In this document: positions 30,527-33,136 of the stretch, piece after piece
How the letters are laid out: each line of letters opens with the position of its first letter
How positions within the stretch are numbered: the first letter of the stretch is position 1
DNA from: Halobacteriales archaeon QS_3_64_16
GTDB lineage: Archaea; Halobacteriota; Halobacteria; Halobacteriales; Halococcaceae
Length of the DNA stretch: 64,000 nucleotides
Direction: 5' to 3'
Assembly: GCA_003021705.1 (NCBI GenBank)
Contig: PXRJ01000054.1
Location: 1 to 64,000 of the forward strand
Translations under genes and position numbers: made by a program
Notes under the pieces: generated by a model
What the model saw: only the letters and a program-made list of their open reading frames with translations
The model's database searches: none
What the model was told of the DNA's origin: nothing

Positions 30527-30668
30527 CGACCGTTCCTTGCCGATCGGCGCACAAAGGACCGTCGTTGCTGTCGGCGACCGGTGCGTCGGACCGTTACGCC
30601 GGATTTCGAGCGGTTTGGAGGAGGGCTCCCTCGACCGACGACTTCCACTTCCACCTCGCATGGGGAAG

Positions 30669-30676
30669 TTTTTATA
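30669..30676 (+). promoter_or_regulatory. Putative TATA box of the RPA-RPAP operon
   Basis: TTTTTATA lies about 63 nt upstream of the ATG at 30739. An in-frame ATG at 30679 lies too close to the box to be the start, so 30739 is preferred; the transcript then has a leader of about 35-40 nt. Confidence 0.45.
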
Positions 30677-30738
30677 CGATGGCCGGCCAAGCGTCGGTTG
30701 TCTCCCATCGAGAAACAAGGCGGAGACAGGGAAAGACT

Positions 30739-31989
30739 ATGACGGACGTACACCAGCACGCAGTAGATATACACGAACAGTTTTCGGACCACATAGACGT
30801 CGACGTTGAGGACGTCGAAGCGCGCCTCGATACGCTAATCAACGAGTACCGGGTGCCCGCCGAGGAAGCCCGCCGGAGCGTCGTGAGCCACTACTTGGAC
30901 GAAGCCGGTCTCGAACGCGAGGACATCCGGGGCGAAAGCGAATCCCGGAAAATCGAGTCGGTAGACGCCCCCGAGCAGTGGATCGACGTCACTGCAAAGA
31001 TCCTCGAACTCTGGGAGCCCCGCAGCGAATCGGTGGCTCAGGTCGGACTGATCGGCGACGAGACGGGGACGATCAAGTTCACCAAGTGGGCGAAATCCGA
31101 TCTCCCCGAACTCGAAGAAGGGACGACCTATCACCTCGGGAACGTCGTCACCGACGAATATCAAGAGCGATTCTCGGTCAAACTCAATCGCACGACCGAG
31201 ATCGAGGAAGCCGAGGAGGACATAGCAGTAGAGGCACCCGATAGCGAGCGCAGCGAGAGCGAGGCGATCGAACTGGCGGCGATCGACACCGACGAGCAGT
31301 GGATCGACGTCACCGCGAAGGTCACCGACCTCTGGGAGCCCCGCAGCGAGTCGATCTCCCAGGTCGGACTGATCGGCGACGAGTCGGGCACCACGAAGTT
31401 CGTCTCCTTTGCGACCTCGGATCTCCCCGAGCTCGAAGAGGGAGCCGTCTACCAACTGAGAAATCTCGTCACCGACGAGTACCAGGGTGATTTCTCGGTC
31501 AAGCTCAATCGCACCACCGAGATCGAGCGCATCGAGGAAGGCCTAGAGGTCGGCGACAACACCGTCGAGAGCGAGGGCATCCTCATCGACATCCAGAATG
31601 GCAGCGGCCTGATCAAGCGCTGCCCACAGGAGGATTGTACGCGTGTGCTTCAGAACGGGCGCTGTTCGGAGCACGGCGAGGTCGATGGCGAGTTCGACCT
31701 CCGGATCAAAGGCGTTCTCGACGATGGAAAGGAGGTCCAGGAGACGATCTTCGATCGCGAGGCGACCGAGGAGCTCGGCGGAATCGACTTAGAGGAAGCC
31801 AAGGAGATGGCGATGGACGCACTCGATACGACGGTCGTCGCCGACGAGATCAGCGAGAAAGTACTGGGCCGGTACTACCGAGTCGCGGGCCCGACGCTCG
31901 GGCGCTACCTGCTCGTCAACGAGATGGCGGAGATATCCGGGCCGACGGCCGATCCGGAAGAACTGCTGATCAAAGCGAGGTCGATATAG
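30739..31989 (+). CDS. rpa3: Single-stranded DNA-binding replication protein A (Rpa3-like) with a duplicated OB fold
   Basis: 416 aa. Residues 1-65 are an acidic helical N-terminal region (HIDVDVEDVEARLDTLI). Two OB folds follow that are nearly identical in sequence (EQWIDVTAK..LWEPRSES..QVGLIGDE at about residues 79-156 and 186-263). A zinc finger C295-x4-C300-x8-C309-x2-H312 lies in the third OB-like region, and the protein ends YYRVAGPTLGRYLLVNE. It binds ssDNA in replication and repair. The short RPAP partner one base after its stop, as in haloarchaeal rpa3 operons, supports Rpa3 rather than Rpa1 or Rpa2. Known Rpa3 proteins are about 310 residues, which matches this protein minus one OB fold. 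Confidence 0.9.
   Translation: MTDVHQHAVDIHEQFSDHIDVDVEDVEARLDTLINEYRVPAEEARRSVVSHYLDEAGLEREDIRGESESRKIESVDAPEQWIDVTAKILELWEPRSESVAQVGLIGDETGTIKFTKWAKSDLPELEEGTTYHLGNVVTDEYQERFSVKLNRTTEIEEAEEDIAVEAPDSERSESEAIELAAIDTDEQWIDVTAKVTDLWEPRSESISQVGLIGDESGTTKFVSFATSDLPELEEGAVYQLRNLVTDEYQGDFSVKLNRTTEIERIEEGLEVGDNTVESEGILIDIQNGSGLIKRCPQEDCTRVLQNGRCSEHGEVDGEFDLRIKGVLDDGKEVQETIFDREATEELGGIDLEEAKEMAMDALDTTVVADEISEKVLGRYYRVAGPTLGRYLLVNEMAEISGPTADPEELLIKARSI
30973..31527 (+). repeat. Tandem duplication of an OB-fold coding unit inside rpa3
   Basis: Unit 1 is 30973-31206 and unit 2 is 31294-31527, each 78 codons, offset by 321 bases. They share long runs at protein level (EQWIDVTAK, LWEPRSES, QVGLIGDE, SDLPELEEG, FSVKLNRTTEIE) and are also highly similar at DNA level. 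Confidence 0.85.
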
Positions 31990-32598
31990 ATGAGCTCCGC
32001 ACCCACCCGAGAAATCGCGCGCCGCGTGTTCGCCCGCGAGTTCAACGACGCCGGCTACACGTTCAAGGAAAGCGAGGACGAACGCGCGCCGGTGTACTCG
32101 CTATTGCCAACCGGCGAGCGCGCCAACCGGATCCTCGCGGTTGGGACGCTCACCGAGACCGAGGACGTCGGCGAGGATTCGGAGTACTGGCGGGGCCGAG
32201 TCGTCGATCCCACGGGGACGTTTTTCGTCTACGCCGGCCAGTACCAGCCCGACGCGGCGAACGTCCTGCGGGAGGTCGAGACCCCCAACTACGTCGCGGT
32301 CGTCGGCAAGCCCCGCACCTACGAGACCGACGAGGGCGATACCAATGTCGCCGTCCGACCCGAGTCGATCACGGTCGTCGATAGCGAAACACGGGATCGC
32401 TGGGTGACCGAGACCGCCCAGCGAACGATCGAACGGATCGAGGCCGCCGAGGAGGAAGGCAGCGAGTACGCTCGGATGGCGAGCGAACAGTACGACCGGC
32501 CCGCCGAGAACTACCGAGAGGCAGTCCTCAGCGCACTCGAAGACCTCGATAGCGAGACCGACGGAGAGGACGCCGACGCCGGAATCGAAGCCGCCTGA
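31990..32598 (+). CDS. rpap3: RPA-associated protein (COG3390, Rpap3-like)
   Basis: 202 aa. It starts immediately after the rpa3 stop (TAG then ATG), so the two are one operon. TREIARRVFAREFNDAGYTFKE, then GRVVDPTGTFFVYAGQYQPDA (an OB-like beta domain), PNYVAVVGKPRTYE and RDRWVTETA are the COG3390 pattern. In haloarchaea this protein binds its cognate RPA and is needed for DNA repair. The short length fits Rpap3 rather than the much longer Rpap1. The last 25 residues are an acidic tail. Confidence 0.9.
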   Translation: MSSAPTREIARRVFAREFNDAGYTFKESEDERAPVYSLLPTGERANRILAVGTLTETEDVGEDSEYWRGRVVDPTGTFFVYAGQYQPDAANVLREVETPNYVAVVGKPRTYETDEGDTNVAVRPESITVVDSETRDRWVTETAQRTIERIEAAEEEGSEYARMASEQYDRPAENYREAVLSALEDLDSETDGEDADAGIEAA

Positions 32599-32713: not shown

Positions 32714-33136
32714 ATGGGCAACAAGAACAAGACAATCTCCTTTCGCGTCAACGAGGACGCCTTCGAGACCCTGCGTGAGATCGCAGAAGAGCGCGACCTC
32801 TCGCTGTCGGCGGTGTTTCGCAACTACGTCGATATGCTGGTTGCCCACGGCGGCCAGGTCGAGGTCGTCCCCGAACACGAGGTCGACGACTCGGGGCCCG
32901 CGGACGACCCGACCGAGTTCCCGCCGAAGATCGAAGTGCCAAAGAGCTTCGTTCGCAATCACGAACGGCTCGAACTCGAGGCCGAACACCTCCGCGAACA
33001 ACTCGACGAGTACAAGCGCTACGTCACCCATCTGCGCGAACAGCTCGACGAACAGGACGCCGAGGACGTCATCCAGCTCGAGGATCTCGACAGCGAGAGC
33101 GAACCCGAAACCGACGAGCCCTACCGTCTCGGCTGA
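32714..33136 (+). CDS. Ribbon-helix-helix protein with a C-terminal coiled coil
   Basis: 140 aa. Residues about 6-45 (KTISFRVNEDAFETLREIAEERDLSLSAVFRNYV) match a ribbon-helix-helix DNA-binding domain: one beta strand, two helices. Residues about 75-115 form heptads (LEAEHLREQLDEYKRYVTHLREQLDE) typical of a coiled coil for dimerisation. The tail is acidic. It could be a small chromatin-associated or regulatory protein. It follows the rpa3-rpap3 operon by about 115 nt in the same direction. Confidence 0.85.
   Translation: MGNKNKTISFRVNEDAFETLREIAEERDLSLSAVFRNYVDMLVAHGGQVEVVPEHEVDDSGPADDPTEFPPKIEVPKSFVRNHERLELEAEHLREQLDEYKRYVTHLREQLDEQDAEDVIQLEDLDSESEPETDEPYRLG

Follow-up and report, generated by a model that had tools for sequence, protein, structure and literature searches.

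Results and discussion

The rpa3 locus

The window analysed here is a stretch of 64,000 nucleotides from Halobacteriales archaeon QS_3_64_16 (contig PXRJ01000054.1, positions 1 to 64,000), and all of its features described below lie on the forward strand. At 30739..31989 it carries an rpa3 gene encoding a protein of 416 amino acids, which scores 621 bits against NCBIfam NF005553/PRK07217, a model whose curated cut-off is 353 bits. PRK07217 is the haloarchaeal 'replication factor A' model, a profile of 311 residues with one OB fold and a zinc finger that fits the Rpa3 of Haloferax volcanii (HvRPA3), and the window protein aligns to it as two stretches, one part of the profile being used a second time. 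The start codon is taken as the ATG at 30739, since it opens the sequence MTDVxQHA that is conserved in relatives; the longer listed open reading frame, beginning with a TTG at 30565, is an upstream extension. The original prediction had named an Rpa3-type single-stranded DNA (ssDNA)-binding protein, and on this score, together with a separate Rpa1-like gene on another contig (C13), that identification holds. Haloarchaeal Rpa1 proteins (PRK07218; HvoRpa1 and Hbt. salinarum Rfa2) are likewise listed with two OB folds and one zinc finger (PMC5924565), but they form a different family: an identity as Rpa1 was rejected, PRK07218 giving 221 bits for the window protein against a cut-off of 447.

Directly past the rpa3 stop codon begins an rpap3-like gene of 202 amino acids (31990..32598), for which no Pfam or NCBIfam model gave a match. 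A homologue lies immediately 3' of rpa3 in 53/53 loci and, judged by this position and conservation, its product is a putative partner of Rpa3. A ribbon-helix-helix protein of 140 amino acids (32714..33136; RHH_1, E = 0.001) occupies the position of ral in the rfa3-rfa8-ral operon, and homologues are found downstream of rpa3 in 39 of the 53 loci. The arrangement in the window agrees with the published gene orders rfa3-rfa8-ral and rpa3-rpap3 (PMC5924565, PMC3287961). No relative was found in phage records.

Domain architecture and predicted fold

The protein begins with a helical region (residues 1-56; 30739..30906; helices 4-15, 23-36 and 41-56 in the model), the equivalent of which is reported to dimerise the RPA3 of Methanosarcina acetivorans (MacRPA3; PMC3438722). 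Two OB folds follow. OB1 spans residues 72-166 (30952..31236; OB HMM 159 bits, modelled strands 81-157) and OB2 residues 179-273 (31273..31557; OB HMM 153 bits, modelled strands 188-265). The C-terminal domain (31564..31932) is a zinc-finger domain resembling the DBD-C OB fold, as described for this class of RPA (PMC8329085); it is identified from the model, from Foldseek matches to RPA70 and from the putative zinc ligands C295, C300, C309 and H312 (Cx4Cx8Cx2H), which are invariant in 49 sequences.

An AlphaFold2 model (mean pLDDT 82.5) shows three N-terminal helices, two separate OB barrels and a third, zinc-containing OB. The fold of each single domain is predicted confidently; the pTM is 0.40, so the relative placement of the domains in the model is not reliable, and the linker between OB1 and OB2 has pLDDT below 50 at residues 166-173. 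Among the best solved matches found by Foldseek are RPA70 chains containing DBD-A/B/C (9pd4_N, E 4e-18; 4gop_C, E 1e-15), and one of the OB folds matches 2ken with a TM-score of 0.81. Eukaryotic RPA70 has the same order of OB, OB and zinc OB, and gives the best Foldseek matches along the chain, but the identity is 10-14%, and its heterotrimer with RPA32 and RPA14 is part of the eukaryotic system.

HvRPA3 shares the PRK07217 family, the N-terminal region, the canonical OB, the Cx4Cx8Cx2H zinc finger and the adjacent rpap3 gene with the window protein. It differs in having a single canonical OB and 311 amino acids, against two and 416 in the window, and in its stacking residue. W56 and F79 of SsoSSB are reported to be central to DNA binding, with F120 and Y144 as their equivalents in HvRPA3 (PMC3438722); the corresponding residues in the window are W (KFTKW) and Y (TDEY) in OB1 and F (KFVSF) and Y in OB2. 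Aromatic residues are kept at both positions in both OBs of 13/13 two-OB proteins. The stacking strand, at 31075-31098 in OB1 and 31396-31419 in OB2, comes in two discrete types amongst the haloarchaea, KFTKWAKS (W) and KFVxFxTS (F). The window combines the two types; G001, its sister species, has the F-type in either OB, and the genus g2 the W-type in either.

The tandem repeat

The tandem OB repeat seen in the original prediction is present as a direct repeat of 294 nt, head to tail and in frame, with an ungapped identity of 74% and a spacing of 321 nt, or 107 codons. Each unit has about 98 codons rather than the 78 first proposed (unit 1, 30932..31225; unit 2, 31253..31546), and the units are separated by 27 nt or 9 codons of unlike sequence, VEAPDSERS (31226..31252), which lies outside the repeat and is predicted to be disordered. 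The units are less alike than their earlier description as nearly identical would have it: across the 95 codons of the entire OB they agree at 67% of amino acids, 74% of nucleotides and 61% of third positions. A core of 79 codons has 60 identical residues and 78% identical bases, with 66, 69 and 50 matches of 79 at codon positions 1, 2 and 3, respectively. The similarity claimed at the DNA level is borne out, in that the same codon is used at 41 of 58 shared multi-codon residues against 30.9 expected from the codon usage of the gene (P = 0.004), but this relatedness of the units beyond that of the protein, although real, is modest. The two OB units are clearly paralogous.

Distribution in the Halobacteriales

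Amongst 394 genomes of the Halobacteriales, representing 95 genera and 17 families, Rpa3 was found in 386. The number of OBs was read for most genomes from the match score rather than from the full open reading frame, and counting of OB domains on all fetched loci agrees with the resulting distribution. Nearly all Rpa3s have one OB. The two-OB form occurs in at least 13/394 genomes which, among the matches listed, all belong to the family of the window (f1) and to three of its four genera: G000 and G001 in g1, the genus of the window, ten (G004-G013) in g2 and one (G014) in g3, the three g4 genomes having one OB. Two further g1 genomes gave no Rpa3 match in the search. The premise that a single OB is the rule in haloarchaea is thus upheld and, within this order, it is not the case that most homologues already have two. 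Weak-hit candidates for two-OB forms elsewhere in the order (G018, G034, G043, G337 and others) were rejected as single-OB genes, split contigs or frameshifted copies.

The second g1 species in which Rpa3 was matched is G001; its protein shares the two-OB architecture and is 83% identical to that of the window. This bears upon the objection that the repeat was created by an assembly error or a chimeric join. The window does come from a draft assembly (70 contigs, completeness 79%), but the difference between its two copies amounts to 22-26% of bases, and besides the orthologue of G001 there are 11 more two-OB orthologues in other assemblies, one of them in a genome (G007) that is a single contig of 2.70 Mb. 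We regard the chance of an artefact as negligible, refuted as it is by two-OB orthologues in independent assemblies.

Further Rpa3-type sequences occur outside the chromosomal locus. Some g2 genomes align with Halococcus dombrowskii plasmid DNA at 83-92%, and by this similarity g2 is probably Halococcus; a search with a bacteriorhodopsin probe detected no Halobacterium salinarum in the family. H. dombrowskii has single-OB rpa3 copies on three plasmids (L127 = NZ_CP095006.1; NZ_CP095007.1; NZ_CP095009.1), and g2 genomes have similar extra copies besides the chromosomal two-OB gene. Some g2 frames have two tandem Rpa3-type OBs and no matched zinc domain (G013 C67:8089-8733 and C103:1750-2448; G009:C27:20997-21602), and some of these carry internal stops.

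Age of the duplication and selection on the units

The original prediction held the duplication to be recent. The dS between OB1 and OB2 of the window is 0.66, which is about as large as that between OBs of different haloarchaeal genera, and can be compared with values of 0.93 (OB1-OB1) and 0.55 (OB2-OB2) between the two g1 species. When single OBs are compared between haloarchaea, a median of 76% of bases are identical, slightly above the 74% of the two units. With a dS of this size and the same architecture in relatives of three genera, a recent origin is not supported; the doubling of the OB is not private to the window genome, being old and present in at least 13 related species. Both OBs are under purifying selection (dN/dS 0.06-0.22 for both units).

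Gene conversion between the OB copies

The suggestion that gene conversion might keep the units alike finds positive evidence in relatives. In g3, OB1 and OB2 share an identical run of 72 nt, and 0/2000 shuffles gave a run as long. In g2, trees of the 5' half of the OB separate OB1 from OB2 (support 100/99) and trees of the 3' half do not, though the test on the 3' half does not reject that separation (p-AU 0.21). Concerted change is concentrated in the 3' half of the OB, orthologous change in the 5' half (distinct sites by half, 5/13 concerted v 31/14 orthologous; Fisher P = 0.0045, the sites not being fully independent), and among 720 pairings compared over the 3' half, the one that joins OB1 and OB2 within lineages gives the highest similarity. 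In the window genome the longest identical run between the units, 24 nt, is not unusual (P = 0.11). The partial homogenisation of the copies in relatives fits an old duplication with patchy gene conversion.

Two-OB Rpa3 in methanogens

In a wider sample of 295 genomes of the phylum beyond the Halobacteriales, two-OB Rpa3s were found in three families of methanogens, f19, f33 and f40; in some cases the genus concerned also has members with one OB (G594, G554). The statement that known Rpa3 has one such OB therefore holds for Haloferax and fails for many methanogen Rpa3s and for MacRPA3, which has two OBs and a zinc finger (PMC3438722). A single OB is consequently not defining for the wider family, and we file the window protein as an Rpa3 variant, a lineage-restricted two-OB form whose domains are ordered as in MacRPA3 and RPA70. 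Hbt. salinarum Rfa3 is listed with 473 amino acids and one OB against 311 amino acids in H. volcanii (PMC5924565, Table 1), a difference that may reflect an upstream start or an additional domain.

MacRPA3 is the closest precedent for the window's two-OB form. Its domain order, of N-terminal dimerisation region, two OBs and zinc finger, is the same, and an RPA2-like gene is adjacent (PMC3438722, PMC8329085); the window protein likewise combines two OBs with a zinc finger in a single chain. MacRPA3 differs in coming from an organism that is not halophilic and from what appears to be a separate duplication, as judged by an OB tree containing Methanosarcina-type sequences. In this tree both the first and the second OBs of haloarchaea fall together and are set off from the methanogen OBs (support 98/97), so that the two-OB state is not shared by common descent. 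Several of the methanogen pairs have their two OBs clustered; in the methanogen genus g162 the OBs of one member are sisters (100/93), and a second member has a single OB. Separate haloarchaeal and methanogen groups, together with the clustering of methanogen pairs, show that the OB was duplicated repeatedly. The same tree rules out the idea that a Methanosarcina-like two-OB Rpa3 was ancestral and was retained in the window's family. The architecture of MacRPA3 and the commonness of the two-OB form in f19 and f33 speak for such retention, but it would also need the loss of an OB in nearly every haloarchaeal lineage, and we consider it highly improbable.

One duplication or several

The reading that we favour, with some reserve, is that a single OB was duplicated in the ancestor of part of one family, and that divergence and partial intragenic gene conversion followed. 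For the non-OB part of the two-OB proteins a single clade is not rejected (p-AU 0.36), the breakpoints and the character of the linker are alike across the two-OB genera and, among the matches listed, every haloarchaeal case falls in one family of the 17 sampled.

Against this stands the possibility, doubtful on present evidence though it deserves to be weighed, that the gene is prone to OB duplication and that tandem duplications arose independently in g1, g2 and g3. In trees of the OBs, one clade of all OB2s is rejected (p-AU 0.016), one of all OB1s nearly so (p-AU 0.059), and one of all 26 OBs is rejected also (p-AU 0.014); the linker lengths differ between genera, giving units of 104, 107 and 110 codons. 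The OBs of g1 and g3 carry the F-type strand that is common to distant single-OB lineages. The EF-2 tree sets g1 apart from g2 and g4 (EF-2 is missing from G000 and G014) and thus does not establish a common ancestor of the two-OB genera exclusive of single-OB genera. The methanogens, g162 for example, furnish clear cases of separate duplication. Gene conversion, however, can alone cluster OB1 and OB2 by genus and explains part of the conflict between the OB trees and a single origin. On balance we think a single origin of the haloarchaeal two-OB form the likelier of the two.

A conserved hairpin in the rpa3 leader

Upstream of rpa3 the window has a TATA-like box, TTTTTATA (30669..30676), assigned to the rpa3 promoter from its sequence, and a covarying leader hairpin, GTCTCC-(16 nt)-GGAGAC (30700..30727), that ends 11 nt before the rpa3 ATG. 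In 92 haloarchaeal and methanogen leaders the six pairs of this hairpin are 98.4% standard, and 57 cells are changed on both sides against 18.8 in shuffles, the 92 sequences being related and the events not independent. Sliding the arms by 1-3 columns gives at most 13 both-side changes. These changes occur in 3/6 pairs (GC to AU once and CG to UA twice), and the commonest arms are GTCTCC/GGAGAC (35 of the 92), GCCTCC/GGAGGC (31) and GCCTCT/AGAGGC (9). Shuffled sequences fold with energies comparable to that of the window hairpin (z -0.74), so it is covariation that carries the argument for a hairpin. The loop varies in length from 11 to 20 nt, which favours an RNA hairpin rather than a rigid DNA operator. 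In 69 of the 77 leaders where a TATA-like box was found it starts 29-30 nt before the 5' arm, and from this fixed distance the rpa3 transcript probably begins near the hairpin arm.

A covariance model, which was built from some of the searched sequences and includes flanks, places the element in 52/60 related genomes, mostly once and ending at the rpa3 start codon. With the same model it is found at plasmid-type rpa3 copies and, with weaker E-values, ending at rpa3 starts in methanogen genomes of several families; in many genomes of the phylum this search did not find it. Before some plasmid-type copies the element occurs twice, about 90 nt apart (G013:C36:28266-28411, G013:C116:15882-16027 and G013:C70:11545-11690). 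Rfam gave no match for the hairpin, and we found no description of it in the titles and abstracts of the openly available literature, a source that leaves most subscription journals outside.

To us this conserved leader is more surprising than the two-OB variant itself. We regard the hairpin as a candidate control element of the rpa3 operon. Its 3' arm, GGAG(A/G), might be a Shine-Dalgarno-like motif sequestered by the stem.

A model for the two-OB protein and its implications

The duplicated unit of about 98 codons would have run from the linker before the OB through to the end of the OB, giving a product in which N-terminal helices are followed by OB1, a short flexible linker, OB2 and the DBD-C-like zinc OB. 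By analogy with MacRPA3 and with DBD-A/B/C of RPA70, OB1 and OB2 may both bind DNA and would lie side by side on the ssDNA, with the zinc domain extending the contact, so that each molecule would have a longer footprint than a single-OB Rpa3. The altered footprint or affinity, and the tuning in high salt, that the original prediction put forward are likewise inferences. It might be argued instead that the second OB is neutral, or purely a structural spacer with no DNA-binding role of its own, given that one OB is enough for nearly all haloarchaea and that one-OB HvRPA3 binds an 18-mer of ssDNA with nanomolar affinity (PMC3438722). The stacking aromatics kept in both units, and a dN/dS well below 1 for both, argue against such a spacer, which we think quite unlikely.

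A more speculative extension, which we put forward as unlikely but worth stating, is that the number of OBs in Rpa3 is an evolvable dial in the Halobacteriota, one OB being duplicated repeatedly and its copies held partly alike by gene conversion, and that the gene is also under the control of the deeply conserved hairpin at the 5' end of its mRNA, to which the OBs might bind; the number of OBs would then feed back on the expression of Rpa3, an autogenous form of control for an archaeal RPA. The one- and two-OB forms of this orthologous halophilic RPA make up a natural series, in which close relatives allow the effect of OB number on ssDNA footprint and salt dependence to be tested. The locus also offers a case of homogenisation between OB copies inside a single replication and repair gene, in a phylum across which the same domain has been duplicated repeatedly. 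If the leader hairpin is a regulatory RNA, it would be an archaeal element controlling a core ssDNA-binding protein.
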